The notes beneath the pieces were generated by a model that saw nothing but the letters and a program-made list of their open reading frames with translations, made no database searches and was not told the origin of the DNA. A program made the position numbers and the translations under genes. Below, piece by piece: positions 16,736 through 61,805 of a stretch of DNA of 64,000 bases. The stretch comes from Owenia fusiformis. Taxonomy: Eukaryota; Annelida; Polychaeta; Sabellida; Oweniidae. Positions within the stretch are counted from its first letter, which is position 1. Each line of letters starts with the position of its first letter. The stretch spans positions 18,185,915 through 18,249,914 of the forward strand of contig CAIIXF020000001.1 of the NCBI GenBank assembly GCA_903813345.2, given 5' to 3'.

Positions 16736-16916
16736 GGTGGCCAAGCTTGCAACTTTCGCCTGTCGGTTACCGGATTAACCTATTATTTTATTACCAACTC
16801 ATTTAGATAGAATGCAATTTTGACAGGAACTATTCATATTTGAATGAGTTAAAATAATAGGTTAATCGGGTAGCCGCTTGTCGAAAGTTGCATTTGCGAA
16901 CATACAAGCTTGGTGA
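16736..16916. repeat. Imperfect inverted repeat (fold-back/MITE-like)
   Basis: The left arm starts at about 16,739 and the right arm ends at about 16,914. They share, in inverted order, CCAAGCTTG, CAACTTTCG, AACCTATTATTTT and AACTCATT blocks around a ~50-nt centre. Two diverged arms of about 65 nt with no coding capacity fit a degenerate fold-back or MITE-type element. I could not define a target-site duplication. Confidence 0.6.
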
Positions 16917-19301: not shown

Positions 19302-19818
19302 ATGAGTTACTATCACAACGGGAGCTATATGACTACTGAACACTTCGCAGGACATAATTCGCCTATGACTACGAACTACCAGAACAGTCCAAGGACAGCA
19401 ACTATTTATGACGATACATCACAACCTGCCTACCCTAGGTTTCCACCTTACGACCGCCTCGACATAAGGCCTATTCAAAGTAACCAGCAGCCCCAAGGGG
19501 GATATTACAACCAGAATACAATAGCCAGAGACAACAGGGATGACTACTCACACACAAACGGCCAACAATTGTCGCCTATACAGCGTTATAGCAGCTGTAA
19601 GATATCAGATGACACCGTAGAAAGCTATTTGGCTGGGGCAGTTGCCGATCATACTACCCCACTGTATGAGAATAACAATTCTCCGCCTCTTCAGACGAGT
19701 ATATCCCCACCCCAGCCTCAAGCTCCCCAAACAGAGACGCCGAATCAGAACCAGTCGCAAAACCAGAACAGTACTCAACAGCAGATACCTATATACCCAT
19801 GGATGAGGTCACAGTTTG
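19302..19818 (+). CDS. Antp: Antennapedia-class Hox protein, exon 1 (N-terminus and hexapeptide)
   Basis: First coding exon of a central-class Hox transcription factor, a nuclear DNA-binding protein that specifies axial identity. It encodes residues 1-172 plus the first base of codon 173. The start is supported by the Hox-like N-terminus MSYYHNGSY, an A at -3, and an in-frame TGA 39 nt upstream (19260-19262). The body is low-complexity and rich in Tyr, Pro, Gln and Asn, with a Gln/Asn/Pro stretch just before the hexapeptide, typical of Hox activation regions. The hexapeptide IYPWMRSQF (YPWM at residues 165-168) is the PBC/Extradenticle contact, and its RSQF extension is the classic ANTP form. 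The exon ends at a strong donor, TTTG|GTAAGT. Reading on into the intron reaches a stop 20 codons later, so splicing to the homeodomain exon at 39724 is required. Identification as Antp rests mainly on that exon. Confidence 0.93.
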
Positions 19819-21629: not shown

Positions 21630-22515
21630 TGGATTATGAGAGATTTTAGATACGTCGTGTATCCTGAGGGAAAATATAGATATCCTACCAAGGACCAAGG
21701 GGTTCTAATGAAAAAGTTCATGTTTCATTATGGAGGTTCTACTTATGTCGTGTATCCTGAGGAAAATAAAGGTATCCTACCAAGGATCCAGAGGGTATAA
21801 GGGAAGATTGCATATTTCATTCTGTAGGTTTTGGAGGTTCTACTGATGTCGTGTATCCTGAGGGAAATATAGATATCCTACCAAGGACCCAGAAGGCCTA
21901 AGAAAAGATTGCATATTTCACTCTGGATGTTTGGGAGGTTCTTCTTATGTCGTATATCCTGGGGGAACTATAGACATCCTACCAAGGGCTCAGGGAGTCT
22001 AAGGAAAGATAGCATATTTTACTCTGGTGGTTTGGAAGGTTCTACTTATGTCGAATATCCTGTGTCGTATGTTGTATATCCTGGGGGAATATAGATATCC
22101 TACCAATGGCCCAGTGGGTCTAAGGAAAGATTTCATATTTCACTCTGGATGGAGGTTTGGGGTCTACATATGCCGTGTATCCTGGGGGAATGTAGATATC
22201 CTACCAAGGACAAAGAGAATCTAAGGATAGATGTCATATTTCATCTGGATGGAGGTTTGGGAGGTTCTGCATATGTTCTGTTATGTATCCTGGGGAAAAT
22301 ATAGATATCCTACCAAGGAGCAATGGGTTCTTAGGGAAGATTTCATATTTCACTCTGGAGGCTTGTGAGGTTATACTGATGTCGTGTATCTTGGGGGAAA
22401 TATAGATATTCTAGCAAGGGCCCAAATTGTCTGAGGAAAGATTTCACATTTCATTTGGGGACGTTTTGGAAATGTGGAATATCCGAAGTAAAGTATTGAC
22501 ATCTTACCAAGGCCT
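21630..22515. repeat. ~101-bp tandem repeat array, about nine copies
   Basis: The core GTCGTGTATCCTGGGGGAA, followed by a TATAGATATCCTACCAAGG block and then a CATATTTCACTCTGGAGG block, recurs at about 21,654, 21,747, 21,848, 21,949, 22,050, 22,172, 22,275, 22,381 and (degraded) 22,475. Spacing is mostly 101 bp. One unit near 22,050-22,090 carries a short internal duplication. The outer copies are the most diverged. The array is non-coding and lies about 1.8 kb into the Antp intron. Confidence 0.9.
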
Positions 22516-22590: not shown

Positions 22591-22668
22591 ACAGGGTGGC
22601 TGAAAAACGGAACCCACAAATCTTTGAATATTAAAAGGTTAGGGTTCTGCATTTTCGAGTGACCCTGT
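22591..22668. mobile_element. 78-bp MITE with mariner-like terminal inverted repeats
   Basis: The left end ACAGGGTGGCTGAAAAACGG and the right end (reverse complement beginning ACAGGGTCACTCGAAAATG) are imperfect inverted repeats of about 26 nt around a short AT-rich centre. CAGGGTG..C..AAAA..GGAACCC is the kind of terminus carried by many Tc1/mariner-superfamily elements. No coding capacity remains. The left flank ends in TA, as expected for mariner insertion; the right flank (TGTA) is imperfect. It lies directly beyond the 101-bp array. Confidence 0.6.
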
Positions 22669-34550: not shown

Positions 34551-34616
34551 GGCAATATAGTGAAATATTGGACCGAGGGCCGAAGGCCCAAGGTCCACTA
34601 TTTCACTATATTAGCC
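34551..34616. repeat. Fold-back hairpin with GGCC-GAA-GGCC tip
   Basis: AATATAGTGAAATATTGGACC and its inverted partner ending in TTTCACTATATT match at 20 of 21 positions, around a GGGCCGAAGGCCC centre. The result is a near-perfect stem of about 30 bp. A TGACGTCA palindrome follows at 34641-34648. The structure resembles the hairpin end of a fold-back or MITE-type element. There is no coding content. Confidence 0.7.
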
Positions 34617-39698: not shown

Positions 39699-40058
<360 letters not shown>

Positions 40059-40240
40059 ATGGATGTACATATTGTATATAAACCAAGGAACCATCTAAGG
40101 GAAACTGCGTGTACATTGTATATTTCAGATTGCAAATAGCACTATCTTGGATCCATTTGGATTGCTCTGTACAGACAGGATGACACTAGGTCATGAACGA
40201 GAATGGTATATGTATAACACATATACATGTGATCATCTGA

Positions 40241-40339
40241 AAGGGTAAATTTTTAATTTAAAGGGTAAAGTATCCAAAGGGTATGGACAAGCTATAGTGC
40301 CATGAACTAAAAGTAAGGGTAAAGACGGTAAAAAGGGTA
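40241..40339 (+). promoter_or_regulatory. Cluster of five AAGGGTA motifs in the Antp 3' UTR
   Basis: AAGGGTA occurs at 40241-40247, 40261-40267, 40277-40283, 40315-40321 and 40333-40339, mostly as AAAGGGTA. Five copies of a heptamer in 99 bases is far above chance. It may be a recognition site for an RNA-binding protein or a degenerate local duplication. The last six bases are complementary to nucleotides 1-6 of the predicted miR-10-type RNA downstream, short of a canonical seed match. Confidence 0.5.
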
Positions 40340-40952
40340 CACATCATCATACTTGACCTCAAAAGACCAACTTGGTTTTGGAGGAACCATCAACAAGAGA
40401 CAGTCACTGATACTGCACATTGTATTGTTACATGTTATATAGACCATCCAAGATCTGAACATACACTTTAAATATAATCATATTGATTAAATCTCAGAGG
40501 ATTTTGCAATACGATCAAGTATACCATGACAGGAGTTCATTGTCAAAATCTAATTGTTCATGCTTCCATGAGCAATCACATTCATAACATTTTATCACTT
40601 TTTAGTGATTCCCATGAGAGCTTAGTGCTTAGATCATGATGAAAATTATAAAGTTGTAAATGACGCCTTTGCCATTTTTCACTCGTTGATGCATACTGGT
40701 AAAAGAAAAAAGCATATTTTGTGTGTATGTTAATGTTTTCTATTCGATGGGATGGCTATTAGTTTAGATTATATATAGAATACGGAGTCTATCCAAAATG
40801 TGCTACATTATTTATAATGTAGAGCTTTAGATGATTGTATTGTAAGTTTTCACACTGGACAATAATAGCTGGACAAACAACACACGCCCATTGGAGAGGG
40901 ATACGTCATTTTGTCATTTTGATGTTGTTATCGTCGTGAATGTGGATTATAA

Positions 40953-40958
40953 AATAAA
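40953..40958 (+). terminator. Polyadenylation signal of Antp
   Basis: A canonical AATAAA about 895 nt after the stop codon, the first good one downstream in a sensible position. Cleavage would fall near 40,975. Confidence 0.6.
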
Positions 40959-40975
40959 TATATAGAACACTTAAT

Positions 40976-42040
40976 ACAGTGTAATTATTTACAACCAAGA
41001 AACCACTCAACTGAGTATCTGGGGTAAGTTGAATATTTTTTCCTCTATACCCACAGGCTCCACAGGTCATAATGTGGTCACCTCACAACTGGCAAATCGT
41101 ATTAGTCATAATGTTTTCCTTTTTCCTACGATGCAATTTGAGACAACTGTCCCCTCAGCAAATGAAACCACTTAAGTAAATTACTGGAAACAGATAGACT
41201 CTTCTTACGTTAATAGCATGACACCATTTAATGATGACCTTTCTGGAATGTAACCGTTATTTTAAGTTTATTATATGAGAAAGTATTTATAATTCTAAAA
41301 CTGTTCATATCTACCAGATGTAACCAACCTTGAATGAGATAGAAGTTAATGCAACTCAATAAACTTCGTTTAATCCAATTTAATCGCTGGATTAAACATG
41401 CATGCTAAACCTTCTGACAACTAAAATATTAGGAATTGTATTTATACGAATATCCTTGTATAATAACTTGTTTTTCCAAAATATATCTGAAGTACGATGT
41501 TGTGGTCAGACTGTAAGTCAGGTGAGAATTCCAACTCCTGTGAAACTGGTCACTTCGTGGGTGGTACATGAAGCGAAAGTGATCAACGAAAACTATATAG
41601 GCGTGAAATGAATCCCACAGTGAGACCACCAATCTCCTACAGTATTCAATAGTCAATACTTCTGAGCAAAAAAAATATAATATTTTTTAAATTTGGAAGC
41701 GAGAATGGCTTACCTTACTAGAGTGTGTCAAATCCGTTTGTCTCACAAGACAATGCAGAACATTTAGAATATAATGCCCATGAAGAAATCATGCAATACA
41801 ATACCAAAGTACAATATGGAGATATAAAACTGAAACGTCATTGTAATAAAGCATTAATATTTAAATTTTTCTAAAGACTTTGATGTTCCATGCTTTGTCA
41901 AATTTCAATGGAGACATTAAGCGACTGTTAGCTCTGGTGGCCTACAGAACGCTCGGGGTAATATCATGGGGTCTTTAAACACCTTTTCAAACATCATTCT
42001 AAGTCCAAAAATATTTTAGAATCTTTTCAACAAATTTAGA
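40976..42040. other. Non-coding DNA between Antp and the miR-10-like hairpin
   Basis: Contains an alternative AATAAA near 41,358 and no recognisable gene. It could be part of an extended Antp transcript or of a primary microRNA transcript. Confidence 0.5.
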
Positions 42041-42393
42041 AGTTAAAAAATATTTGCAACAGTAAAAGTACAAAATGGCGGATAGAACTGTTTATGACGC
42101 AACATAGCATATGAATAAAATTTAGGGCATCCAAGTTTAACGTATTGCTTTTGTCTGTTTGAAATAACGTGAACCGTGTTTTAATGGATTTTTATAAAAA
42201 AAACTCGAATCATGACAGATTTATTGAAAGGAAATTCTAAAGCAAATGTTGTCTACAGCTTATAGCGAGTCACAAACAAATCATCTTCGCGTCTGCGCAC
42301 TGAGTACGGATGCATAAAAATCAAGATGGCGGTCAGGTGTGGCAGACGGTTGAAAATGTTAGAAAAATCGACGAAATAGTTGGAAGAAAATGT
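42041..42393 (+). promoter_or_regulatory. Candidate promoter-proximal region of the miR-10-like gene
   Basis: A patch with elevated CpG carries two YY1/PHO-type motifs, CAAAATGGCGG (42071-42081) and CAAGATGGCGGTC (42322-42334). A CpG-rich GCGTCTGCGCACTGAG stretch lies between them (about 42,290-42,303). The second YY1-like site is about 70 bp upstream of the hairpin. YY1 motifs of this form tend to lie at or just downstream of transcription starts. Whether the hairpin has its own promoter or is cut from a longer transcript cannot be told from sequence. Confidence 0.35.
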
Positions 42394-42475
42394 GGGATTC
42401 TCTTGTACCCTGTAGAACCGAGCTTGTGCTGAAGTTTAGAACCACAAGCCATTCTACAGTGTGCATGGAAATTCT
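42394..42475 (+). ncRNA. Predicted miR-10-family microRNA precursor
   Basis: A pre-miRNA-like hairpin on the Antp strand. The predicted 5p mature is 42406-42428 and begins TACCCTGTAGAACCGA, so its seed ACCCTGT is that of miR-10. It differs from vertebrate miR-10b, as I know it, at two positions (17 and 18). CTTGTG (42423-42428) pairs with CACAAG (42443-42448) across a 14-nt loop. CTGTAGAA (42410-42417) pairs with TTCTACAG (42452-42459), with an asymmetric internal loop between the two stretches. Below the mature, 42394-42408 pairs with 42461-42475 with G-U wobbles and isolated mismatches, giving the extra turn of stem that Drosha needs. The predicted 3p arm lies at about 42445-42466. miR-10 is a Hox-cluster microRNA that represses Hox mRNAs in several animals. 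Here it lies 2.35 kb 3' of the Antp stop rather than beside Hox4. Confidence 0.9.
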
Positions 42476-45400
42476 TACGATTCGACATATACACGTGAAA
42501 TATGGCACCAGACATGGAATCCAGGGCCCGGTACGATTATAGGTTATCCAGACACGGAAGACGATCGATATGCACGGCGTTGTGTCTTGTCTGATGGACA
42601 TTGTGTTACAGTGGAAGTGGAACATCAAGTCTGATGGGCAGCGTTTTCCACATAGTTTGATTATGAATCAATTGAATTTCTATATCTATATTCTATTTTG
42701 AATCATCTAGATGTACAAAAGATGTCACTTGGTGAATTGAGCTCATGTATGTACATCGTGACCCAGACTTCATAGAATGGACTTGATTGGAAAAAAAGGA
42801 ACAGTATCGAGTTTAATGTTATTGAAACGTTGTTCAATAAACCAATTTCTATATTCATATACATGTGAATCATACCAAACTATTTTGTTTATTTGTGATT
42901 ATACAGTGTTTGATAAACGTGCATTTACAGTTATTTCAAATGGAGTTTTCCATCTAGACGGCCATTTTGTTTTCTCAACGTCATCAAAGAGCAGAGTTAT
43001 GATTGGTCTGAGACAAATCAAGACCCTGTCCCATAGAACTCAATATATATATCCTCATGCTCTCTCTCTCCACCTATATATTGAAACCAATATTTCCTAC
43101 ATACAACCTGTACTAAATGGCCACAAAAACCCCAATATTGCTAGCTTGTGTATGAATCAAGATATTAAATATATTCAACTAAATTGACCCAAATGCAAAA
43201 GAATCCCGAACCATAACTAAAGATTTACGTTTTCAGAATATGTCTAATAAAGCAACGCAGATGTTGATCTATTTTTTGGTCTCGTTAAAGGCTATATTTG
43301 TTCACTTTTAACCCAGGTTCCAATTTTACTTTCTCATCGCGTCCACAGCTAGTGGCATATGCAGCAATTAATCAAAGCAAAGACAGAGATTAATTATCTC
43401 CCGTCTATTCTTTACAAATGCATATGAAAAATTGGCCTGGCCAATTCGTACGGAAATTAAAAGATAAAACAGTGATAACATTTAAATTGAACTGGCATCT
43501 GTGTTCATCCATCGAAACATGGTTACTAAAAAGAACGGAGGTATTGATACAATGCTGTTCCTGTTTGTCCCTACAATGAAAATGCAATTTAGTCAATCTT
43601 GCTTTAAATAGCATCAATCCTTCTTTACATAACGAGCATTTAATTTGTTTGTTGAGCCATTTTATTCGGATTGGAAAAGAAATGGATAAAATCAAGCCTC
43701 GATGTAACTAATCAGCTCCAAGAGTTCATGGTTCGATAATGATCCACCTTCTGGACAAACTGGATCGGTGATAAATTCACCAAACTCGCTCACTTATTTA
43801 ACCATTTCACTTAATTATTACTAACATAATAACATTTTAATCGTTTGTTATATTTAAAGGGTGTCAACGACCGACCCGTTATTAAATTGACATTTATGTG
43901 GCCTATTTTATGAATACATGAAGAACGTTGTAACATGCTGTTCAGCTATATGTATTGGTATGTAAGGTCTATATTTACAAGATTTATTGTGAAGTAACGA
44001 AGACTCGTCTCCAGGGCAAAACCATGTGTTAATTACAGATGTACTGTCGTATATGTGTTACATTGAACTGGCGTATTTGAGAGAAGTAACATTGAAATAA
44101 GGCAATACTATATTCGGTATATACTTAAGTTATTTATCAAATTTTTCGATGGTATAGTATCGCGTTGAGTTATCTATTAAAGATAAGTTGTTTTAATACA
44201 TATTTCATGAATATAGCGCTCTTCTTTTCATCAACTCCAATTAATCTTTTAGTGAAAATTGGTGAATCTGGTCATATTTACAATCATTTAATTACATTTG
44301 AATTATTTAACTCTTCTAATATTTTTCTCGAGAAGGATGGATGCTTGCATCATCTCAAAAATGTTATTGAACGCCTTTTCTACTGGGTGCAAATATTACA
44401 AGGTAGCATTCTGGTTTTAAAATGAGTGGCATCTAGTATATTATTAAACTATAATTATAATAAAAACAATTTCCTATAATTTTAAATATGATATGGCACG
44501 ATAATTCACCTTTAACTCCTTAGTAATCAACTGACTTCTTTGGATTATCATTCTATTAAAATTGCAATTATGACAACTGTTTATTCACACGAATTCAAAT
44601 TGTTTATTTTTTGTCTATCTTTAGATCGTTTCGAATTAATACAAATAATTACTGAATACAATAAATGGGTGTTCAGTGCTGTCCTCTGCTTTTTTGGTTT
44701 TAGTATGACATACTGTAAAACCAAAGTTTTCGGTATTGAATTTCAAACACTTTAAATTAAAATGTATTATATTGTTGCAGATAATTCATTAATTGTACCC
44801 AGTGTACTGTTTCACTTGTTATTATTTTCATGGAATGTTCTACCGTATGCTAGACCAATGGGCTATTGCTATCATGTGAGGTCCCAATGTATATAAAAAA
44901 TAAAACGTTGAGTATTCATTGTGTGTAATTGACCATTGCAGCCAAGTCCGAAAGGAGTTTCAAAAGTAGTCAAATAAACATGCCAAGAATACCAAGGACG
45001 AAAGTGAGTCTCATTTCGGCAATTAATATGAGTAGGAGGACCTCATCATTACTCTCATACATATCGATTATAAATCTCTTTGGACTTTTGGGATGACCTT
45101 TGACAAACCTCTGAATCTTATCTCCACTGGTGTTTAATAATTTTCCTTAATTACTATCATCAACGAATTTACATATAAATTAACTTGAATTGAAATGATG
45201 CATTTTTGACCATACAAACTCCAAATGTCTAGATGATTCATGGGATTTTAAGGATGAACGGGATACTTCTGAGAGAGATAATTACCATCGAGCAATCAGC
45301 ATTCTTAGACCCGTTATCCCAGTGATTAATTCAACGGTGAGTGTGTGGATAATCTAAAGAAAACCAGATGGCTTGACTGACCGCTTACCCCAAGGCCCTT

Positions 45401-46250
45401 GGGACAGGGAGATAATAGAAGGTAGCTCGCTAGTCACGCCACCCTGTCATTATCGTGGGCACCATCTTACTCTTGAAACCTAGATCGTCTCTACTAGACC
45501 ACAACCCTGTCATCGTTGTTTCTCTTTGGGCAATCGAGCATACAAGGACTTTGTTCTCGTCACCCTGGGATCCTGAATTTACACTCCTAGTCATGGGAAA
45601 GTTCACTTGTATTTAGATATCTACAATCAATCACACGTCTACAAAATCATGAACCGTTTCCCTCCAACCCTGCATGTTTCTACTTTAATTCATATTGCAT
45701 ACTAGTACCTTTTGTAAGTCTGAACTATATTCATAATAATTACACAATGGGTAATGTATTGCAATATTTGACGTTGAATGAATGAGAATTTTTTGACTTG
45801 CTCTATTGACAAATATTTTCATGCATCAATGTTTTTCTTCTTTATGTATATTTCTTTAGGGGACGTTTTGTGAGATTGCTTTAAAGTACGATTTTTCGTA
45901 ATTTGATAGGTTCATATCCTAAGCTGTTGTAATGTTCGTTGGCCATTGTTATCCTTTGCATTATTGTGGTCTCCCCTGTTATTGCTGATGAATACTAAAA
46001 CAATATAGGGTATATAACATGATTAGCAGGCAATGGCATAATTTATATTAATAAACATCATTGCCTGCTTCATTTTTTAACTTGTAACTCCTTAGACAGG
46101 CTCTTCAAATATGCCATCATCGAGCTAAAACATTGTTCATTAAGCATATCCTGTTTTGATTGAATGTAATTGAGGAAAAATGTTCTTTGTGGATAACTCA
46201 AAACATGTTGCATATTCATTGCAAAAAACTATTAAGACTTATCCTTTGGA
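42476..46250. other. Non-coding DNA downstream of the miR-10-like hairpin
   Basis: About 42.48-42.65 kb is CpG-richer than average and may belong to the primary transcript. A YY1-like ACGGCCATTTTG is at 42958-42969. A 136-codon open frame at 42777-43187 has no recognisable domain. About 45.0-45.65 kb has more even base composition and looks like a possible conserved non-coding element (see findings). A short hairpin GCAGGCAATG/CATTGCCTGC lies at about 46,026-46,063. Confidence 0.5.
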
Positions 46251-46255
46251 GCTGA

Positions 46256-46345
46256 TTTGATATATTATATTGTGTGAAATAGTATGGCTTCTGGCTTCAC
46301 ATGCATTTGATATATACTGTGTGAAATAGTATGGCTTTACATGCA
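46256..46345. repeat. Two-copy tandem duplication (~45 bp)
   Basis: TTTGATATAT...TGTGTGAAATAGTATGGCTT...CACATGCA occurs at 46256-46305 and again, about ten bases shorter, at 46306-46345. Confidence 0.8.
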
Positions 46346-47514
46346 TCTTGTTTTGAAGTAAATTCAATCGTTGGAAAGGGGTTGATTTCTAACAAACATT
46401 CAATGTCACTGTGGGTGCACAGTCTCTACTATTCTTTGGGAAAGCTTCGGATATATTTTATTTATTCTTCAAGTACATTCACACCCCTTGGGGTCAAGTA
46501 CATGTACAAACAAAAATTATAACAATTATAAAGGAAGGAAAAAGACGACATTTACATGTAAAAGAACTAGGCTACTTAACTAGGTTACTTATATAAAGAC
46601 TCTGATAAATCAGAGGGATTCAACGTCATTACATTAATCATATTACACAATCACTCAGACAGAAATACTCTGAAACAATAAAATATGTATGTGTATGTGT
46701 ATATGTCGAGCCATTATAAAAATACAAGGATAAAATAATAAATCATTTGCAATTGCATTGTTAACCTGTCGGAGTGTCAATGTCTATGTCAACCCTGTAA
46801 CTGTTATTAGTGTTCTATTAATCACGATATGACATGTTTGTTGTTCATATATTCAGTCCTCGTATACATAATTATGATATCTACAGATATCAATCCATTT
46901 TATATTGACAGAATCAGTACATTAAGAGATCAATATTACGTCATCTAACATCATCAAATCGGATTAAAATTCATCTGGTAAAACTTTGAACAACAAATGT
47001 CTCGAGGAACCTTCCATGTCACATGTATTTTATTTACCTCAGTAACATGTACTTGGCCATTTTTCCAGTAATAGCAAGATGTTCAATAAAAGTTGTTGTT
47101 GATCCTGTATTTAATGTTGTAACATTCTAATATACTATGGAGGTCAACTAATGATAAATATTAGAAGGTTAGACCAAAGATGGTGGTTCTGATCTAAACC
47201 TGTAATATGTAGAACTTCTTGCTACAAAGAATAACCAAAAAATGCAGAACACTAGTGTCCCATGAGACAAATATGCCAGGAGACTTTGGACTTTGGAATT
47301 CGAATTAGGGATAATGGGGATTGTTTCCTTTATTATTGATTGCCAGCCTACCCATGGTTTCATTAATATAGGATTTCGAAGATCATTTCTAAAGATCAAA
47401 TCGTTTCTCTAAAATATACTGTCAAAGATTGGCAAAACATCAGAAATATAAACACCAAAATGCATATTTATCCTTTATACATATGTATGTTCAAAGATTC
47501 CAGTTGGAACAATC
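46346..47514. other. Non-coding intergenic DNA
   Basis: AT-rich, with no gene, RNA gene or repeat recognised. Confidence 0.5.
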
Positions 47515-47573
47515 GACTGTCTCCTGATACTCTACTTTAGTATTATGACAATGTAGTGTATTAGGGGACAGTC
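47515..47573. repeat. 21-bp-stem hairpin of unknown nature
   Basis: The arms 47515-47535 (starting GACTGTCTCCTG) and 47553-47573 (ending GGGGACAGTC) pair at 20 of 21 positions: 18 Watson-Crick, two G-U and one U-U mismatch. The loop is 17 nt. The pairing does not continue below the stem. It may be a microRNA-like hairpin or a small inverted-repeat remnant; I do not recognise either arm. Confidence 0.5.
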
Positions 47574-50500
47574 ACTAGACATATTCGTTGGGGAGTTAGG
47601 TATCGTTAATATTCTAAGGTGAGATGTTGCGTAACGTAATTGTCTTAGCTGGGATAAGTAGTTATCTAAGTTCACTAGTAAACGATACTATGTACATCTT
47701 ATACACACCTAGTGCAAAGGGAATTAAAAGGAATATTACCAAATATTTTCTTCTATAACACTAATCATTAAACCATTAAAGCTCCTAAGATTTATGTGTT
47801 TTGGTTTTTACAGTTATATTATTGATAAACAGGCAAGTAGTTTGTCCCAAGGCAGGTTACTTCGACACAGTCAGCCAATTTTGTAAAGAGGTTGCATCGA
47901 GCCCCTGATTTGTGCCCTGTCAGTCCCTAATATTGGGAATTCAAATTTACATTTATGTAAATTGAATACCATTCATATCTCAGGTGTATAGGCATAAATT
48001 GATAAAATTTTTGATGTGTGTACTCATCTTGTAAAATGTGTTTGATTTGAATATATCCAATTATATCGGATTTTACCATGTTGAAATAAAGAGGAACTCA
48101 AAAAATTTGCAGAGGTATTGAGATGTAGTTGAGTAACTTAGTGATTAGTTGTTTCCTAACTATAATGCCGCATAAGCACCCTTTGCAACTACACTGTGGT
48201 ATATCGTCGCTATGGAAATTGATACAAATGCATTACGGCATTGACTTGAATTAAAGAGCCAATTTGTCCCCAGATGTATCTTCATTATAATGTCATGCAT
48301 TCATTTCCCTCCCAATTACATCTTAGGAACTTACTGATAGAAAGTGATACCATTTCAACTAATGAATCTTCCCCAGTGCTATTATATTTTACAATAAATC
48401 AACCACGTTGACTTAATTAAAGATATGCTACATAATATCACATCTATAAAGGTAATGCACAAATGAAACCTGTAATCATCTTCACATTCAACATGATAAG
48501 CAACATGATTGCTTGTTATGTGCATGTATTATCACTTTAGAGTCAAAACAATACATTGTCATTCATTATATTTCCCGAAATAATATCCTCTCTAATTGTA
48601 TGTATTGCAAATAGTGCTCTTAGGTAATCGAATGCCGAGTATAATTCATAAATTCATCTTTAGTATGAACGTAATGTTTAACTATTGCCATAAAGGAGGT
48701 GGTCCCTGGAGTGGGTAATTAACAGAAGCAAGACTCATCAAAGTAAAAGGAATTAACGTAACACATCATATATCAAAATACATTCATCCGAATGTATGTT
48801 TCAGCAAGTGTAAATTGGTAAATTGGCTTTTTAGTTTTAAGCTGAGTCACACTCCCATTGTTCAATTAAGGATATCTTCCCGGGGAATTATGCAATATGG
48901 TTCCCAGACGAATGTCTGAGTTTTTGCAATGTGATATGCTTTGGCTTTGCCCTCTTCGATCAGAAGTATGACATAACACCTGGTGAACTGGAATCTACTG
49001 ACAAAATAGAAGCTCATTTATCTTCTTAAATCAGTTTGCTCGACTTTTGTTTGAAATTAAGCATTAGAAATAACTAATTGTACACGGCTTTGTGTTAGAA
49101 GTACATCAGTTCATGATTGATGGAAATAACGCAATCGTGAGACTGTGTATTACACAAGAAGGGTGGTTGAAATGTGGAATACAACTTTTATATGGGTTAG
49201 CGCAGAATACATGGTAAGAATGCATGCCAAATTCCAACCCCATCCCTTCTCATTTTAACGACTAGAACATGAAAATGGTTAGAATTATAATTTCACCAAT
49301 AAGGTACATGTAATATTTTCCCTATGATAAGGTCGTTTTGTTATTTAGGATTGAGACAATTTTCAGAATGGAAAAGTTGTGTTTTACACCGTTTCTTTGT
49401 ACCTTAGGTCATTGGTATAGTGGTGACTTATTTCCTAATGACCTGATATAATCTCAGTTGTTCCTTCTCTATTTATGTCTAAACCCAGAGGCTTACAATA
49501 ACAGAAGCCCTCGAACTGAATTTTGTAGAAGCAGGTTAAAAACCTCACAAAGGGAAATACTCGAATGCTTATAACAGTTTCTTATAGTTAGGGTTGACTT
49601 GATTCGTGTTTTTCAAAGAATATCATTTTGTTTTGTTACGTACACGTATATATATTCAATAATCATATGATTTTAGAGGTAAGTGTGCAGAAATTTCGTT
49701 GATGGTAATGTAATGGAAAAGAACACACAACAGCCAGTCCATAAATCACTTATATGAAACTTAGATTCAAGCCAAAAAGTCATCAAATCATATTCACACC
49801 AGAAACTTGACAAGACATAAAAAAAGTTCCAAAGTACTCAATCTACTCAATAGGGAGGTTAAACAACTGTACGTGAACGTGTATGATTATAGTCCTTTAT
49901 GTATTATTTCTCCCATTTGTTCTTTTTACTTTGATGATGGATTGTAAAGATGTACGGAAAATAATTGTAATTAGGTCCCTGAAAAAGTGAAAAATTACAT
50001 GCTCACTTACAGGTTCTCTAAAAAACGTGTAACTTAATCTCCTATATACCAAACTGAACAGACGCAATCACCAGGCTATTCAGGGGGTAAATAGCACAAT
50101 TTTAATCTTCACAGCACATGTTTAAGTTAAAGTGGACATTTCTTTTTGTTACAAATGCGAATATAAGATGGTGGACATCTATGTGTCTTTATATCAATAA
50201 AACGTTTTTGTTGTTCATATTTATCTTAAATGAGACATGAACACAAAATGTTCCCCTGGAATAATGGCGCGAAATAGATGAAGTGTGACATGGACGGATT
50301 GGATTGAGTGTATTTCTTATGCATAAATTTGTTCTTGTTCACTCTGTATGTTGAGTCTGACGTCTACCTGTATGATGTACCTGTACATGATACCGTGATT
50401 ATGCTGGCTGTTATTATAGCTAGGGCACGGGGCTATTACGTGTAAGAGTACTCGGCTGTATATTCAGTTCAACGTGTATTTTAAAATGCTCACGGCCGTA

Positions 50501-50790
50501 TGCTGAGGACTGGTTGGTACCCGTGGTTTCACAAAAATTCAAATGGTACTACATAGCCAAAAAATGTGCCCAAGAATAAGAGGAAAATGTGCTAAATTCA
50601 AATCCATCGTTTTGGGTATTTATCTGCAAAAAATGATAAGACATTAAGCCATGGCTCATTTGAAAGGTATCTTTGTGCTTTTTAAGATAAACAAAAATCC
50701 AAATATTGAAAGAATCTTTTATAACATGCCCTCATCCGTGCCTATACATATATTTATCGTATGATCTGTAAAATGAAGCCCTCTGATTGG
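47574..50790. other. Non-coding intergenic DNA
   Basis: No gene was recognised. About 48.65-49.0 kb has more balanced composition, with TCCCGGGGAA near 48,879 and CAGACGAATGTCTG near 48,906. It could be a regulatory element, but nothing specific is identifiable. Confidence 0.45.
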
Positions 50791-50812
50791 TCAGTTCTTG
50801 TGCTGTACCAAT

Positions 50813-51060
50813 CTGTATTGCTACTGAGATTGTCCGCGTTGATCATCTCCGTCGCAATACAGAAAATATTGGTATGGAGGAGACAATTTCAGTAGCAATA
50901 CAGAGGATAACACGATAAAAACGTTATTGAATGATTTGAAGTGCAATACAGGATATATTCTGTCTCGATATTCTGTATTGGCACTCGACTTCGTCTCGTT
51001 CCAATACGGAATTTCTCGAACAGAATATATCCTGTATTGCACTTCAAATCATTCAATAAC
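50813..51060. mobile_element. Nested inverted repeats (fold-back/MITE pair)
   Basis: There are two adjacent palindromic units. In the first, CTGTATTGCTACTGAGATTGTC (50813-50834) is repeated inverted at 50882-50903 with one mismatch. In the second, 50923-50963 and 51020-51060 are perfect 41-bp inverted copies, and the pairing continues imperfectly inward for about 18 bp to a short centre. The units share the word CAATACAG, which suggests related non-autonomous elements, one beside or inside the other. A perfect 41-bp palindrome implies recent origin or ongoing correction. There is no transposase. Confidence 0.8.
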
Positions 51061-54000
51061 TTATAGTATACACAACATCGCCTACCAAAGCTCCTTTGTA
51101 AATCAGTCCATATGAGGGAAAATTTGTTTTTACATACAATATTACGTGTGACGACAACACATTAACAAAAACATATTTTGAACTTGATCATTACAATTAT
51201 TAATTGCTACACGGCTCATTTTTCAGTTGAGTTTTCGCAAATTGGTTTTAATGATGTTTTTAATAGATTGTGTCAAAAGTTAAAATAATTATGTGACACA
51301 TTTTAGTGTTAACATTTTTGAACTATGTATTTATGATAAAGTCGTGCTACCTTATAATTATATGCTTTCTAAACACCTAACACGCTACTAGAACTCTAGT
51401 ACTACAATTAATAGCGTGCTAACTAGACATAACATAAAATCAATAGATCATTTTCATTAACTTTATTTTTTGTGAATCACCCTTTAATGTCAGTTTTGAA
51501 CCTGTGTAGTGTTAATGCTCACACATGATGAAATCACTCCCATTGCCTATTAAATTGACAGGAATAAACTCTAATATACCAAGCAATACATCAACAGTGT
51601 ATACATAGATGTGCTATGTAGAGCAATATTAAAGACACATAACTAGGTCAATGTGTGTAGTATAGCTCTTCTATTGACTCTAAGCAAAGGCCATTGTCTC
51701 TTATGGTACTGCATGAAAGCTAAATTGCCTCTAGACCAACTATACTGCGTTAATGTCATCCACATTTGTCAGTCTGACCTTAAAATGGGTCTATGACTAT
51801 ATTGATGTTCAAGAGGAAGCTAGATACTAAGAAGAACCGCAATCTTAACGCTATTATTACATTGACACAAAGACACCGCTGTAACGAGTAATTGTACAAA
51901 GTTTTCTTTAATATCACATGCATATTGGCACTCACTGCTCATATTCAGCCCGCTATATAAAAATAAGAAATATGCAGTGTATGCCCATGACTTATTTACA
52001 AGACTATGGTTACAACGAATACATTATAACAAAATATTTTTGGATGTCCATATAACTTGCAATTTAAAGAATAGTAGTTACATTTTTCCAAGGTAGCATA
52101 TTTTAATTATAATAAATCTAATTCACTCATCTTAATTTACTAGCTATAGTTATCCATCTGGTGAATTTAGAAATATATGTTTCAGTTCAAACAAATTATC
52201 TGAATTTCAGGACTAATGCGGGCAAGATACATATTAAACATTTACATGTTCCACCGTGCTTCAACGTATTATGGTTGATCTTGAGAAGAACTGGCAAGCT
52301 ATCCATCAATGTTGCAGTTTTCAGATGATCAAATCAGGCCATATCTGTTGAGAAACTTGAATGTATGCCAGACAGAGGAACACTTCAGATAAGTACCGTA
52401 TAGAACTCGTTCAGATGTTGGAACACTGTGGGAAAGTTGTATCTCTCACAGCAAAAGAGGGCATTCGAATTCCCAGTGCCAGTTGCCACCCCTGTGAGGT
52501 GTTTTACATGCACGATTACAAGCCATAGAGTATGCTTATATCATATCAAATTTTTGTCTTCCATTCTCCTCATACATATTCAACATCATTATGGATCGTT
52601 TCACATTATATATTCCATATTTGCATTTTGATCCAGATTCATATGCAAATATATTCCTTTGCTAATGGACTTCATAATCTAGACTTGCTTCTTCCATTCA
52701 AGCGTCGATCGTTGCTGTCTGTCGATTTTTGGACCGTGTCACCGTGTAAATGCAAATTCTGAAAAAACGAAATAAAATCTTTACTTATCATAAACATGTA
52801 TTCTGTCTGTGTAAAAGATGTATCATTGAATAGAGTTGCTTTCTATTTCAATAGAAAGCTATTGCCAAATTTCAGCTTCTGTATTTTGTTAGCAAGGTGC
52901 ATGATAAAAAATATATGATACATACATTTGCACATGTAAAGCAAATGTGAATGTATGTATACAGATAGATATATACGAAAAAGCAAATTAACGGAGCAAG
53001 CCAGGGTTATACATTTATTTTAAATGTAAATTTTATATGTTTTAAGCCATAAATCGTTAAAATTAAAACAATTAAAAAATAAGGAAATACACTTTTTAGA
53101 CTTTTATGTAGCAAATGGTATGAGTAATGTACTTAATTAAATAACTGGGAAATTTGTGATAAAAGTGCAACAAGAGCTATAGAACAGTACACAAATACAT
53201 GTTTTGAAAGGTGAAGGTCGAAATAAACATGGCTGCCTCTTAGTTTGTTTATGTATCCCCAAATTGACGAAACCATGCCTACAAGAAGGTAGCATCTGTC
53301 ATGTTAGTCTGGCATTGTACTTCATGTAGTATGTTTAAAATTCGGTTCTTATTTCTCGGCCTACAGTTTTTGGATAACTTACTCTGTAATGTATATTAAA
53401 TACTTGAGTCGTGAACAAATCGAGGAATTGACAGAGACGAAATGGGGGTTTCTAAATATATTTTTACAATGTCCATAAATTGTTTAAATTGGTGTTTGCG
53501 TTCCTGTCCGAAATAATGATATATGTGGGTAATCGAAAGCAAGAGAAATGTCTAGAATAACCAAGGAGCCTAATTCTCTCCTATCTTTTATACGACTGTC
53601 TCATAAATTAGTCAAAGGGACAATGAAACTATAATACACAGCACAGTGAGAATACTCCATCCTTAGAACCCATTCAGCAATCTAACTTGTTTTCGGTCTT
53701 AAATCAAATATGTTGTCAAAATCAAAAATTGTTTTTCAAAAAGATGTGAAAATTAATTTAAATATCTAAAAAGTGGTTTAGTTCAAAAGGCTATTTTTCA
53801 AATTCCTCATTTTTCAAAGTATATATAATTAGAATGTAATTGAGAATATTTGTGAAAATATAACTGAAAGAGATTTTTTAGAAATACATCTTACATCTAG
53901 TAGTTTTTCTCTATATGTATAAATATGTATACGATTGTTGGATACTATTGATATCTTGATCTCATACCCTGGATAGTTAATTGTAATCCTGAGAAATAAC

Positions 54001-56939
54001 TAGGATTTGGAACTGATAAAGATATCTTATAGTGAATGAATCCATTAGAATGCTGATTTTACTAATGACTAATATAATGACTCAAAAGCATCCATCCTAC
54101 AAAAACGGGCCCAAGACAGCTCAATTTGGACAATTGCAACTCATTAATTAATTACATTAGTCCCTTTCCTTGAGAATAATCAACTGAGATGCTAACTATA
54201 ATATCAGTCCATTATTGTTTTCGATAATACTGGCTAAATGCGCCTTGGAAACTAATGAATCGTTCCAAAGCAGTTTAATGAAAATTACTTGTTCAGAATA
54301 AGAACTACTTTATAACATATTGGAAAAGACTATAAATTTAGGGAACTGTCTAGTTGTCCATTGAAGCAAGTTTTTACATTCTTTCAGAAATTAAAAGTGT
54401 TCTAGTATAGCTAATGAAATTTTTGAGTGGAACAACAAAAGCCCATACCATTGTGAGTGGGCTGATATCGTAAATAAAGGAACACTTCCTTTTAAACGAT
54501 TGTTTGTACAGTAAAACACAACATTCGACTTAAACATATTCGTTTATTGACTTAGGATTTACATTACTCTTTGAGTTAATGATTCTTCCAGTCTTTCAAT
54601 AATGAGGCCAACGTGTTCCCCCATTCCTGTTTATAGATCTTTAAATCACTTCCGTTTCCCTGTCATTGTTGGTATACTTAACAAGTGCATTAAAATGAAC
54701 AAGTAAATGAACACATAATTAATTACGGTATCAGTATTTCTTGTTAAATCTCATTAGAAGTATCCGAGGTTGTGATCCTGTATAGATTTTTTGGGTTTGA
54801 TTTGATGGGGTATTACCCTGTTAAATCACTGCATGAAATGAAAAAGTTATGGCTACATAGAGATGCACTTGTTTTGGCCCATAAACAAACACAGTACTTC
54901 TTAAACTAAACGTCTCTAAATTATAGCTATTTTCGTTAAACTGGTTTATTTTTAGTGCATCTAGAGTACATTAACACGTGCATGGTCCATACACAAAAGT
55001 TACTAAGACCCGGAATAAGTCATATCGTATCTTCACACAAAGCTAGTAAATCTGTCAAAATGTTACCATTTAATTTCTTTAAAATAATTGTGGTCAAGTC
55101 TTCGTTTTGACTTGTGGTTCCAATACAAGTTTTGTTTCTTTGAACACACCATGTTTAGCAATAATTCTTAGTACCAAAAACGCCCATGACAAAGTTGTGG
55201 CCAGCTTTGATTCTGACCCCATTCTCCTCAAATCAGATAAACAAAAAACAATCTACCTTTCCCCGAAGAGACTGTGACACAACTAGACAAGACTATACAC
55301 ACTTTACAAGGTATACGTAAGTTAATTTTATGAAGTTTTGAATTGTTTCTTTGTTATTTTCGTTAAATCTGTCAAGTTGCTTAAACTTCCCTTAGGGTTA
55401 AATGCTCTTTGAATCAATGGTCCACACATGCGCAGTAGGGGTCTTGTAGTTGTGATGAACTTTTGGCCCTCTAACAACTAACTGCATGTCGGTCGAGATA
55501 TCATCACAAACCGTTCAGAATCAAATTTATCTTAGAGAATTTTGTAGACAAAGTGCACAAAGTGACTTCTCTAATACTTGCCATCTCAAGTTGCACTTGT
55601 ATGAATCCCATATGGCTGTTAGCCTTAACATAGTCTGTATATACATATCTAGTTACTCTAATTTCGAAAATTGCATGTTTACTTTTCAAGGCCGCATATA
55701 ATATTAGACATTGCAGTGAGGATCTTGGGCAAAAAGTTGTACATGCATTTCGTAAAAGTCATACAATTGTCAAACACCATAATTGATCTTTTCATAAAAC
55801 GTCCGGTGTGTGTTTTTCGAGACCTTTGTTTTATGATTTTTACCTGAAACTTTGCGGTAGAAGCCCCCTGTTTTGCTAAGCAATTACTGGCATTATTGAA
55901 CTGGCAGTTAGACCGTAGGCCGTTATCGGTGTACACATTGGGAACATAAACCATCCTTAGTTTAATCAGTTCGTGTATCAAGAAACTCGGTAATTAAATG
56001 TCGATTCAACATACTGAAAAGATGCGTCTAAAATCCTTTCATACGAATCAATATTCTTATACATAATTAATCTTACCAAGGACATTTTCCGGTGTTTAAA
56101 AGAACTAAATTTAAATAGATGTATTTTCGTCATTTTTCATTGCATTGTGATCTGCTGACAGTTTCACTATAAATCTACGCAGATATTAAACATTAGCATG
56201 ATTAATTAGGCGTTTTTAATATTATCGTACACACACACCCCGAATGAGATTTTTTTAAATTGAAAGTTGTACACAATAGAAATCATTAGCCTTTGGGATT
56301 CAAGACATAAATTGATGTTTTCTTTTCAATCAGAATTAAAGTCCTCTAGTGCCGATCTTGGATGCAGGGATTGTTGTCTGTAATGTGAGTAAGCACTTCG
56401 ACATAGCTGACCTTTTCTACAAGATCGTTTTCAGCAGTATTACTATATCGCCTTCCATACAAACACTCTGCTCAGCACCGTTGGCGCTTTACATTTATAT
56501 GGCACACAATATTCCAAATTATTAATGGGCTGTTGGCAATGACAATGTGTGCAACAAGAGACTGTAGAGATGGTTGGCAATGTAAAAAGAGTAACATTCT
56601 ATATTGATATTGATTAGCCTTTGATAGCAACACTATCATTTCAGAAGTCAAACCACATTGAGTCTAAACATCACCAAATGGCATCGAATTGTCAACGACC
56701 AAAATGTTTTTATTTCACTAAATTTGACATAAGTAATATTTAGGTCAAATTCCAACTAGATTTTTCTGAAAACTCTATAGAGTTTAGCTTACAGGGTGGG
56801 TGAACACATAACTATTCAATTATGAGCCGTGTATTTCACAATGATTGGTCTAGTGTCCATCAGAGGTTGATTTAGTCATTATTACGTCATGCCTTGACTG
56901 TTATCCACGGACAAAACATAACTTAGTATGGTTGATGCA
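51061..56939. other. Non-coding intergenic DNA
   Basis: AT-rich, with no recognisable gene or RNA gene. Small items only: a perfect hairpin GCTTTCTATT/AATAGAAAGC near 52,840 and a NRF1/GABPA-like CATGCGCAGTAGGGG near 55,428. Confidence 0.5.
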
Positions 56940-57359
56940 CTAGTACTATTGTTTATTGATGCTGTTTATGGTATTACACATTTGTCGTATGATACAAGTT
57001 CGTGATGCATAATAACTTGTCATTTTTCATAATTGTGCAATGATATGATATGGAATGTGATATGTCGTCGTTAAAAATGCCACAGTATCTGGGATATAAT
57101 GTTATGGTTTGTGAAAGTAGTGCGATATGACACCGTAAAACCTGGTTAATAATGCTATTCCAAGATATTTTTGATGTGCTATGATATGTCATTGTTTTTA
57201 ATGTGGCGTTGCGATTGATACGATTTGGTTTGACGCCCTATGGTCATGTTTATAATTGTTCAGTTTAACAATATATGATTTGATATACTGTGGTATAATA
57301 TTGTTTTTGTATCGTATTTTATATGGTATAGCACTTGTTATAGTGGTGCAGTGTGATTA
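56940..57359. repeat. Degenerate leading edge of the minisatellite
   Basis: Words such as ACAAG/GATATG, TGTGCAATGATATGATATG and TATGGTATA recur irregularly. They look like strongly diverged copies of the ~57-bp monomer found in order just downstream, consistent with ageing of array edges. Confidence 0.5.
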
Positions 57360-58297
57360 ACGGGATATGATTTGATATACTACTATGTATAACATTGTAA
57401 TGATGCATTCTGGTTGACAAGATATGTTTTGATGCACTATGGTATAGTATTTGCTATAATGGTCTAGTGTGATAAATAGGATATGATTTGATATACTATG
57501 GTATAACATTGCAATGATGCATTCTGGTTGACAAGCTATGTTTTGATGCACTATGGTATAGTATTTGCTATAATGGTCTAGTGTGATAAAAAGGATATGA
57601 TTTGATATACTACTATGTATAACATTGTAATGGTGCATTCTGGTTGACAAGATATGTTTTGATGCACTATGGTATAGCATTTGTTATATTGGTCTAGTGT
57701 GATAAATAGGATATGATTTGATATACAATGGTATAACATTGTAATGATGCATTCTGGTTGACAAGATATGTTTTGATGCACTATGGTATAGCATTTGTTA
57801 TATTGGTCTAGTGTGATAAATAGGATATGATTTGATATACAATGGTATAACATTGTAATGATGCATTCTGGTTGACAAGATATGTTTTGATGCACTATGG
57901 TATAGCATTTGTTATATTGGTCTAGTGTGATAAATAGGATATGATTTGATATACAATGGTATAACATTGTAATGGTGCATTCTGGTTGACAAGATATGTT
58001 TTGATGCACTATGGTATAGCATTTGTTATATTGGTCTAGTGTGATAAATAGGATATGATTTGATATACTATGGTTTAACATTGTTATGGTGCATTCTGGT
58101 TGACAAGATATGTTTTGATGCACTATGGTATAGCATTTGTTATATTGGTCTAGTGTGATAAATAGGATATGATTTGATATACTATGGTTTAACATTGTAA
58201 TGGTGCATTCTGGTTGACAAGATATGTTTTGATGCACTATGGTACAGCATTTGTTATATTGGTCTAGTGTGATAAATAGGATGTGATTTGATTTTAA
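57360..58297. repeat. 114-bp dimeric minisatellite sub-array (eight copies)
   Basis: GCATTCTGGTTGACAAGATA starts at 57405, 57519, 57635, 57749, 57863, 57977, 58091 and 58205, so the period is 114 bp with one 116-bp unit. Each unit is two related halves of about 57 bp (a GCATTCTGGTTGACAAGATATG half and a GTGTGATAAATAGGATATGA half). Since 114 is divisible by three, a repetitive frame stays open on the minus strand; I regard it as a by-product. Confidence 0.93.
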
Positions 58298-59021
58298 TGT
58301 CACCCCAAAAAGTGGTGACATATTGTTATGGTCTCCAGTTTTGTTGGCGATCGTCAATCGGTTGGCGTCTGTAACAAATTCTTACAACTTCCAATAACTT
58401 AACAAATACTGTTTAGTCTGATATCATTTTTTCAAAATCATCTATAAGTTGTCAGAAGATTAAATCTGACAAGATTTAAGATTTGACCTTCTCAAGGTCA
58501 AAAAAAGATTAAAAAGGTCAAAAAGGTATATTTCAACTTGTTTCAAATTGACCGATTTTTTCAAAATCATCTACAAGATCTTAGAAGTTTGAATCTGACT
58601 TTAGATTTCACCTTCTATGACCTTCTCAATGTCAAAAGGGGTCAAAGGGTCTTTTTCACCTTGCTTCAAAATCATCTACAAGTTCTCAGAAGTTCAAATC
58701 TGACTATAGATTTGAGATTTGACCTCCAATGACCTGCTCAGGATCAAAAGGATTTGACCTTCAATGCCCTTCTCAAGGTCAAAAGGGTCTTTTTCAGCAT
58801 TTTAAAAAAACATTTTCATGATCTGACATTAAATTTGAGATTTCACATTCAATGACCTTCTCAAGGTCAAAAAAGATTAAAAATGTCAAAAAGGTATATT
58901 TCAACTTGCTTCAAATTGACCATTTTTCCAAAATCATCTATCAAGTACAAGTACAAGTTCTCAGAAATTCAAATCTGACTTAACTTGAATTCATAATATT
59001 GCGAGCAACTAGGTGGTGACA
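58298..59021. mobile_element. 724-bp insertion with internal tandem repeats, splitting the minisatellite
   Basis: It begins with the palindrome-like TGTCACCCCAAAAAGTGGTGACA (58298-58320) and ends at AGGTGGTGACAT (to 59021), with minisatellite sequence on both sides. The interior has about five diverged copies of a 105-145-bp unit built from AAATTGACCGATTTTTTC, AAAATCATCTACAAG, CAGAAGTTCAAATCTGACT and TGACCTTCTCAAGGTCAAA blocks. There is no coding capacity. A non-autonomous element inserted in the array is the simplest reading. A related single copy lies near 61,990-62,110. Confidence 0.65.
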
Positions 59022-59480
59022 TTTTGTCTTGTCAATGTCTTGTATAATAGTGTACTATTGTATAGCATTGTTTTATATTGCAGTGTGGTTGACAAGATAT
59101 GTTTTGGTGTACTATATGGTATAGCATTGTTTTGTGTTGCAGTGTGGCTGACAAGATATGTTTTTGTGTACTATGGTATAGCATTGTTTTGTATTGCAGT
59201 GTGGCTGACAAGATATGTTTTTGTGTACTATGGTATAGCATTGTTTTGTATTGCAGTGTGGCTGACAAGATATGTTTTTGTGTACTATGGTATAGCATTG
59301 TTTTATATTGCAGTGTGGTTGACAAGATATGTTTTGGTGTACTATGGTATAGCATTGTTTTATATTGCAGTGTGGTTGACAAGGTATGTTTTGGTGTACT
59401 ATATGGTATAGCATTGTTTTATATTGCAGTGTGGTTGAAAAGATGTGTAATGATGCACTATGGTATATGTATATATAGCA
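59022..59480. repeat. 57-bp monomer minisatellite sub-array (seven copies)
   Basis: CAGTGTGG(C/T)TGACAAGATAT starts at 59081, 59140, 59197, 59254, 59311, 59368 and 59427. The spacing is 57 bp, or 59 where the monomer carries an extra AT in ACTATATGG. Neighbouring monomers are nearly identical. The 57-bp period is divisible by three, so both strands carry long repetitive open frames that are not evidence of genes. Confidence 0.93.
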
Positions 59481-60180
59481 TTGTTTATAATGGCGCAATG
59501 TGATTAACAAGATTTCTACTTGTACACGTATAATCAATTGTTTGTAATTTGACATTGCATAGTTAATGCACTATAATATGGCACAGTTTGGTGCAATGTG
59601 GTTGACTTAAAATGTCTGATCCTAGATTTGTATTATTGCACCTTACATTAGGTGATGACATGACATTGTTTAAATAGTGCAGATTGACAAAACACGATTG
59701 TACATTACATCACGTGGCATTGTTTTAATTGTGCAATATGATGCAGTGTGATTACCAATATGTGATCTGATGTCATGTAATATGGCATAGTTTATATTGC
59801 TACGGTTTGACTGACAAGATTTTACGTACTGTCATATGGTATTGCCTGAAATGGTGCAGTGATTGGCAAGACGTGACTGCGTACTATCATATGGCATTGC
59901 TTGTAATGGTACCGTGTGATTGACAAGATATGCGTTAATTGCGTTAAACGTGATTGTACATTATATCACATGGCATTGTTTTAATTGTGCAATATGATGC
60001 AGTGTGATTACCAATATGTGATCTGATGTCATGTAATATGGCATTGTTTATATTGCTACGGTTTGACTGACAAGATTTTACGTACTATCATATGGTATTG
60101 CCTGAAATGGTGCAGTGTGATTGGCAAGACGTGACTGCGTACTATCATATGGCATTGCTTGTAATGGTACCGTGTGATTG
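59481..60180. repeat. Higher-order ~256-bp duplication of minisatellite variants
   Basis: A block of several diverged ~60-bp monomers starting near 59,694 (CACGATTGTACATTACATCA...) is repeated near 59,950 (GTGATTGTACATTATATCA...). Both contain the same succession ATTACCAATATGTGATCTGA, GGTTTGACTGACAAGATTTT and GGCAAGACGTGACTGCGTAC. It is a recent local segmental duplication inside the array. Confidence 0.85.
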
Positions 60181-61060
60181 ACAAGATATGCGTTTAGGTA
60201 CTATCATGTGGCATTGTGTGTAATGGTGCAGTGTGATTGACAAGATATACATTTACGTACTATCATATGGCATTGTGTGTAATGGTGCAGTGTGATTGAC
60301 AAGATATGCGTTTAGGTACTATCATGTGGCATTGTGTGTAATGGTGCAGTGTGTTTGACAAGATATGCATTTACGTACTATCATGTGGCATTGTGTGTAA
60401 TGGTGCAGCGTGATTGACAAGATATGCGTTTAGGTACTATCATGTGGCATTGTGTGTAATGGTGCAGTGTGTTTGACAAGATATGCATTTACGTACTATC
60501 ATATGGCATTGTGTGTAATGGTGCAGTGTGATTGACAAGATATGCATTTACGTACTATCATGTGGCATTGTGTGTAATGGTGCAGTGTGATTGACAAGAT
60601 ATACATTTACGTACTATCATATGGCATTGTGTGTAATGGTGCAGTGTGATTGACAAGATATGCGTTTAGGTACTATCATGTGGCATTGTGTGTAATAGTG
60701 CAGTGCGATTGACAAGATGTGCGTTTACGTACTATCATATGGCATTGTTTGTAATGGTGCATTGTGATTTACAAGAAATGCATTTACGTACTATCATGTG
60801 GCATTGTTTGTAATGGTCCAGTGTGATTGATAAGACATGACTGCCTAGTATCATATGACATTGTATGTAATGGTGCAGTGTAATTGACAAGCTATTAATT
60901 CACGTACTATCATATGGCATTGTTTGAAATTGTGACGTGTGATTGACAAGATATGCATTGTTTGTTTGTTTGTTTGTTTGTTTGTTTGTTTGTTTGTAAT
61001 GGTGCAGTGTGATTGACAAGATATGCAATTTACGCACTATCATATGGCATTGTTTGTAAT
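60181..61060. repeat. 59-bp monomer minisatellite sub-array
   Basis: GTGCAGTGTGATTGACAAGATAT recurs every 59 bp (60229, 60288, 60347, 60406 and on). Monomers alternate between a GCGTTTAGG type and an ACATTTACG/GCATTTACG type, giving a partial 118-bp higher-order period. Copies diverge beyond about 60,700. Confidence 0.92.
60957..60997. repeat. (GTTT)n microsatellite inside a minisatellite monomer
   Basis: About nine to ten GTTT units sit exactly where other monomers read CATTGTTTGTAATGG. The tetranucleotide has expanded out of the monomer itself. Confidence 0.9.
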
Positions 61061-61805
61061 GGTACAGTATGATCGGCAAGATATGCATTTACGTACATCA
61101 TATGGCATTGTTTGTAATGGTACAGTATGATCGGCAAGATATGCATTTACGTACATCATATGGCATTGTTTGTAATGGTACAGTATGATCGGCAAGATAT
61201 GTATTTACGTACATCATATGGCATTGTTTGTAATGGTACAGTAAGATCGGCAAGATGTGCATTTACGTACATCATATGGCATTGTTTGTAATGGTACAGT
61301 AAGATCGGTAAGATATGCATTTACGTACATCATATGGCATTGTTTGTAATGGTACAGTATGATCAGCAAGATATGCATTTACGTACGTCATATGGCATTG
61401 TTTGTAATGGTACAGTATGATCGGCAAGATATGCATTTACGTACATCATATGGCATTGTTTGTAATGGTACAGTAAGATCGGCAAGATATGCATTTACGT
61501 ACATCATATGGCATTGTTTGTAATGGTACAGTATGATCGGCAAGATATGTATTTACGTACATCATATGGCATTTTTTGTAATGGTACAGTATGATCGGCA
61601 AGATATGCATTTACGTACATCATATGGCATTGTTTGTAATGGTACAGTAAGATCGGCAAGATGTGCATTTACGTACATCATATGGCATTGTTTGTAATGG
61701 TACAGTATGATCGGCAAGATATGCATTTACGTACATCATATGGCATTGTTTGTATTGGTATCGTGTGATTGACACGACATGACATCGCACTGTCATATCA
61801 TATAA
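61061..61805. repeat. 58-bp monomer minisatellite sub-array (twelve copies)
   Basis: GATCGGCAAGATATGCATTT and its variants start at 61071 and then every 58 bp to 61709, each followed by ACGTACATCATATGGCATTG and TTTGTAATGGTACAGTA. It is the most homogeneous part of the locus. Point variants such as GTAAGATCGG/GATGTGC and GATATGTATTT are shared by non-adjacent copies, indicating block duplication. Confidence 0.93.

Follow-up and report, generated by a model that had tools for sequence, protein, structure and literature searches.

The 64,000-nucleotide stretch of the Owenia fusiformis genome analyzed here (contig CAIIXF020000001.1, positions 18,185,915–18,249,914, forward strand; hereafter, the window) contains, 3' of the Hox gene Antp, a hairpin that we judge from its letters to be a candidate miR-10-family microRNA gene and to differ from canonical clam miR-10, miR-1991, miR-100, and miR-125. 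It is probably a gene of the spiralian Hox cluster, namely mir-10b, the Hox-cluster Mir-10 paralogue of annelids and molluscs (PMC6160089). The sequence, fold, strand, and linkage to Antp are read directly off the DNA, and here the original prediction of a miR-10-type hairpin at 42394–42475 holds in its letters, seed, strand, distance, and paired 3p arm: the hairpin lies on the Antp coding strand, and from the end of the Antp stop codon it is 2336 nt to 42394 and 2348 nt (2.35 kb, as predicted) to 42406, the first position of the putative 5p arm.

Of the 23 positions of the 5p arm, 21 coincide with zebrafish miR-10b, the mismatches falling at positions 17 and 18 (letters from PMC2148072), so that the proposed two-position difference from vertebrate miR-10b is borne out for the zebrafish sequence. 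The first 16 nucleotides of miR-10b run unbroken in this arm; 1.1e-5 such matches are expected per 64 kb on both strands, assuming independent bases at the window composition (G+C content 33%). Clam (Tegillarca) miR-10a-5p, which in its printed letters is identical to zebrafish miR-10a, shares 20 of the 23 letters and departs from the arm at positions 12, 17, and 18; the A at position 12, common to the hairpin and vertebrate miR-10b, may be convergent. The seed (positions 2–8) and the stretch CCGA at positions 13–16 are the same as in canonical miR-10. Alignment with miR-100 requires a gap inside the seed, and the miR-125 seed is different. A miR-1991 gene displaced to Antp would account for the common seed letters (PMC4138081), but beyond the seed the 5p arm diverges from snail miR-1991, and the miR-1991 gene of oyster, limpet, and Capitella is located between Post2 and Post1 (PMC4138081), so we give this reading hardly any credence. 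The seed ACCCUGU at positions 2–8 of the 5p arm, the similarity past the seed, the stable hairpin, and the loop region of 16 nt agree with the traits of the MIR-10 family.

Folding of 42391–42480 yields −33.4 kcal/mol (z = −4.55), and that of 42380–42490, suggested as a check along with the original prediction, yields −34.8 kcal/mol (z = −4.25); in both cases, none of 200 dinucleotide shuffles was as good. In the list of base pairs, a mature duplex follows the basal stem and ends in a terminal loop region; with 2-nt overhangs assumed, 16 nt separate the mature arms, rather than the 14 nt initially read as the loop. A CNNC motif, whose role is known from mammalian work, starts at +18 past the putative Drosha 3' cut; the chance expectation of CNNC near the cut, counting three offsets, is about 8% in the window. 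By minimum free energy, the hairpin ranks 13th (tied) among 8,522 sampled 90-nt windows, 12 of which fold equally well or better. The fold energy by itself is thus unexceptional; the exceptional part is a strong hairpin together with a miR-10b-like arm. Among the sampled windows, folding is strongest at 34554–34612 in the Antp intron, the site of an inverted repeat of 28 nt (89% complementary, 3-nt spacer).

This rank, as well as the sub-threshold Rfam scores given below, would be consistent with a hairpin having no microRNA output, i.e., a decayed copy or a structured segment of the Antp 3' untranslated region. However, both arms are intact and paired, and the 5p arm is the most family-like part, while decay would be expected to destroy the pairing; moreover, no open protein frame accounts for the hairpin. 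We consider lack of output very unlikely.

The heptamer ACCCTGT occurs in the window at nine sites on both strands against 4.19 expected, a number reached in two of 100 shuffles; six of these sites fall within 42407–56797, 3' of Antp, one of the six at 43023, near the hairpin. The hairpin is the best-folding of the nine (−30.6 kcal/mol, downstream pairing of 18 of the 22 arm bases), the remaining eight ranging from −5.8 to −18.6 kcal/mol; the closest in pairing is the plus-strand site at 22662 (16 of 22 arm bases, −17.3 kcal/mol). The window has one miR-10-like site, the hairpin itself, as could be the case if the canonical Hox4/Hox5 miR-10 had relocated to Antp and were the sole copy in the genome; a moved miR-10 has a precedent in a mite (PMC4862073). 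The canonical gene, however, would be expected to keep the nucleotides at positions 12, 17, and 18, all different here from clam miR-10a-5p, and relocation seems improbable. Of the two possibilities raised at the outset, a second, posterior Hox-cluster paralogue or a relocated gene, the paralogue is the best reading; its placement as posterior is probably wrong, as discussed below.

The minus strand of the hairpin folds as well (z = −3.63, one of 200 shuffles as good), more weakly than the plus strand, and scores 20.5 bits with the Rfam mir-10 model in a local search. As the hairpin is palindromic, both results are expected, and they are neutral with respect to an antisense (iab-8-like) microRNA. 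Origin from a transposon or a foldback was rejected: off-locus matches in the window span only 11–19 nt, the best BLAST match of 42330–42540 within the window being 17 nt (E = 0.13), and the perfect foldback of the window is elsewhere. The latter, at 50923–51060 in the region after Antp, is an inverted repeat with 41-nt arms, 100% complementary, and a 56-nt spacer, and is perhaps a foldback or an element resembling miniature inverted-repeat transposable elements.

Several observations weigh against the assignment to mir-10b. Nothing in the window reaches an Rfam gathering score: in local searches, mir-10 (RF00104) scores 22.0 bits against the gathering score of 47.5, and the best sub-threshold score, that of mir-57 (RF04194), is 22.8 bits against 44 (E = 1.3 and 2.4, respectively, in the whole-window search). 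Over the whole window, mir-10 is outranked by a spurious match to MIR7723 (E = 0.0058). We take the low scores to be a limit of narrow models, yet they argue against an easy call; the hairpin is not filed in RF00104 and is retained in the wider MIR-10 family, the gathering score being the curators' cut-off and not a biological trait. Further, Capitella miR-10b is possibly seed-shifted (PMC3394115), whereas the 5p arm here reads as unshifted miR-10. The label mir-10b rests on family, place, and exclusion. Finally, no 7-mer target site ACAGGGT is present from the Antp stop to the hairpin (40059–42393).

The MIR7723 match (33.9 bits against 200) falls on a 43-nt inverted repeat, 86% complementary, at 16748–16892. 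Searches of the open-licence literature for whole or partial sequences of either arm gave no match; an exact 22-mer in prokaryotic and viral contigs and a degenerate miR-10 pattern in viral contigs gave zero matches, which is uninformative on animals.

The unshifted seed might also indicate a recent copy, specific to this lineage, of canonical miR-10 or of another miR-10 gene, next to Antp and not orthologous to mir-10b. Copies of miR-10 indeed multiply in some lineages, e.g., earthworm (PMC6160089) and slug (PMC12506671). But given that a second Hox-cluster miR-10 is known in the same groups, orthology is simpler, and divergence from clam miR-10a-5p at three positions hardly suggests a very recent origin; a recent duplicate is, in our view, unlikely. 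The mir-10b assignment is favored by the 16-nt identity to miR-10b, the plus-strand fold (z = −4.55), the first rank among nine seed sites, the non-repetitive sequence, and the CNNC motif at +18.

The hairpin was initially placed on the posterior side of Antp, in the Antp–Lox4 interval; this is unproven and probably reversed. In Hox clusters, 5' corresponds to posterior and 3' normally to anterior, and the molluscan and annelid (spiralian) clusters mostly keep one orientation. Since the hairpin is 3' of Antp, and 3' is normally anterior, the likelier default interval is Antp–Lox5 rather than Antp–Lox4, and we consider it likely that the hairpin is on the anterior side, which corrects a likely misreading. 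Neither Hox neighbor was seen in the window: motif scans of the window revealed no further Hox-type homeodomain or hexapeptide besides Antp, which leaves room for an inversion, and slug clusters with inverted parts are known exceptions in orientation (PMC12506671). No paper naming an Antp-flanking position of a miR-10 was found in the open-licence literature, the coverage of which is partial.

The coordinates of the hairpin parts and of the Antp exons are given in Table 1. The two exons splice in frame to a protein of 283 amino acids with YPWMRSQFG followed by the homeodomain, and the best Protein Data Bank (PDB) sequence matches of the exon 2 product are to Antennapedia. The identification of the gene as Antp, and not Lox5 or Lox4, rests on the PDB and Pfam matches and on diagnostic stretches: the MRSQFG linker and the lack of both the Lox5 parapeptide and the UbdA peptide. 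The 20-kb Antp intron also carries a tandem array of 101-bp units (21732–22458). Other arrays, with similar-looking units of 114, 57, and 58 bp, occupy 57322–61781; a 267-aa open reading frame on the minus strand there (57578–58381) is mostly the translated 114-bp repeat, and we regard its Pfam matches as spurious.

Table 1. Parts of the candidate miR-10-family hairpin and coding exons of the adjacent Antp gene (window coordinates).
Feature	Position	Strand	Remarks
Putative pri-miRNA hairpin including the lower stem	42391..42480	+	Fold −33.4 kcal/mol, z −4.55; list of base pairs
Putative 5p (guide) arm, miR-10 type, 23 nt	42406..42428	+	Seed ACCCUGU; ends predicted; 42407 is a possible alternative start
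Loop region separating the putative arms, 16 nt	42429..42444	+	2-nt overhangs assumed
Putative 3p (star) arm	42445..42465	+	Pairs with the 5p arm; ends predicted from 2-nt overhangs
CNNC motif	42483..42486	+	Starts at +18 past the putative Drosha 3' cut
Antp coding exon 1	19302..19818	+	YPWM; GTAAGT donor
Antp coding exon 2, homeodomain, stop TGA	39724..40058	+	Pfam Homeodomain 1.2e-22; best PDB match 1hom_A 1.3e-34; splice

With regard to transcription, processing, guide strand, orthology, and targets, we infer the following. The plus strand would be transcribed, either on its own or within a long Antp 3' transcript; the duplex would be released by Drosha and Dicer, and the 5p strand would be loaded. 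Because the seed and the 13–16 stretch equal those of canonical miR-10, the targets would largely be the canonical ones, and what this gene contributes specifically would be the place and time of its expression, presumably in the Antp domain. If it acts like vertebrate miR-10, it may dampen, in Antp-expressing tissue, the mRNAs of Hox genes that are more anterior (Lox5, Hox5, Hox4, and further); in zebrafish, miR-10 represses HoxB1a and HoxB3a (PMC2148072). Antp itself is a disfavored candidate target of the 5p arm, since its 3' flank as far as the hairpin lacks ACAGGGT. Within the window, the plus strand has this 7-mer at two sites, 22591 (in the intron) and 56791, and the 6-mer ACAGGG is seen once in Antp exon 1, at 19534.

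The surprise value is lower than originally proposed, as the literature already describes additional miR-10 genes in annelid and molluscan Hox clusters, so that for spiralians a second miR-10 at such a place is known in kind; the remaining interest is the place behind Antp and possible sharing with other spiralians and amphioxus. A role in sharpening Hox boundaries is commonly ascribed to microRNAs of the Hox cluster, and a copy linked to Antp and bearing the canonical seed raises the question of regulation of the anterior neighbors. The literature on spiralian Hox-cluster microRNAs, as far as consulted here, is mostly lists and positions; a hairpin 2.35 kb behind Antp is a precise locus for comparison across molluscs, annelids, and brachiopods, and bears on the ancestry of the second miR-10. 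In amphioxus, extra miR-10 copies are found at Hox5/6 and Hox9/10, with "similar duplication and positioning" noted in Capitella (PMC3394115). It is doubtful that the hairpin is the same gene as the amphioxus Hox5–Hox6 copy and the similarly placed Capitella copy; if it were, the bilaterian ancestor would have had two Hox-cluster miR-10 genes, one at Hox4/5 and another at the central-class boundary, the latter of which insects and vertebrates would have lost.

Among known systems, arthropod miR-iab-4/iab-8 are similar to the hairpin as Hox-cluster microRNAs, and the positional comparison drawn in the original prediction finds no support past that. The C. elegans-type mir-57 has the best sub-threshold Rfam score, yet one below gathering. 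miR-1991 is similar in the seed letters and in residing in the Hox cluster, and differs in the post-seed letters and in its location. In the MirGeneDB nomenclature, P2 stands for miR-100 and P4 for miR-993; oyster Mir-10-P5 may be either mir-10b or miR-1991, and its predicted Hox-B7 target is left aside as evidence. Vertebrate miR-10b is close in the letters of the 5p arm, but vertebrate miR-10 is located between Hox4 and Hox5 (PMC3394115). Similarly, canonical miR-10 (Mir-10-P1, between Hox4/Dfd and Hox5/Scr) has the same seed and 13–16 stretch, but differs at the three positions listed above and in place: the hairpin adjoins Antp, besides which no Hox gene was found in the window, and does not lie between Hox4 and Hox5. 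The extra copies of amphioxus and Capitella resemble the hairpin in lying within the Hox cluster, and the Hox5/6 copy may be roughly comparable in place with the Lox5–Antp interval; unlike the unshifted arm seen here, Capitella miR-10b is possibly seed-shifted. In the slug Deroceras, a second miR-10-like copy is upstream of genes assigned to paralogy groups 7–8 (PG7-8; PMC12506671), and in earthworm miR-10 copies are multiplied (PMC6160089). The annelid and molluscan mir-10b is similar in belonging to the miR-10 family and in residing in the Hox cluster, in spiralians alongside canonical miR-10; the hairpin agrees with this in its residence next to a Hox gene, 3' of Antp and on the same strand.
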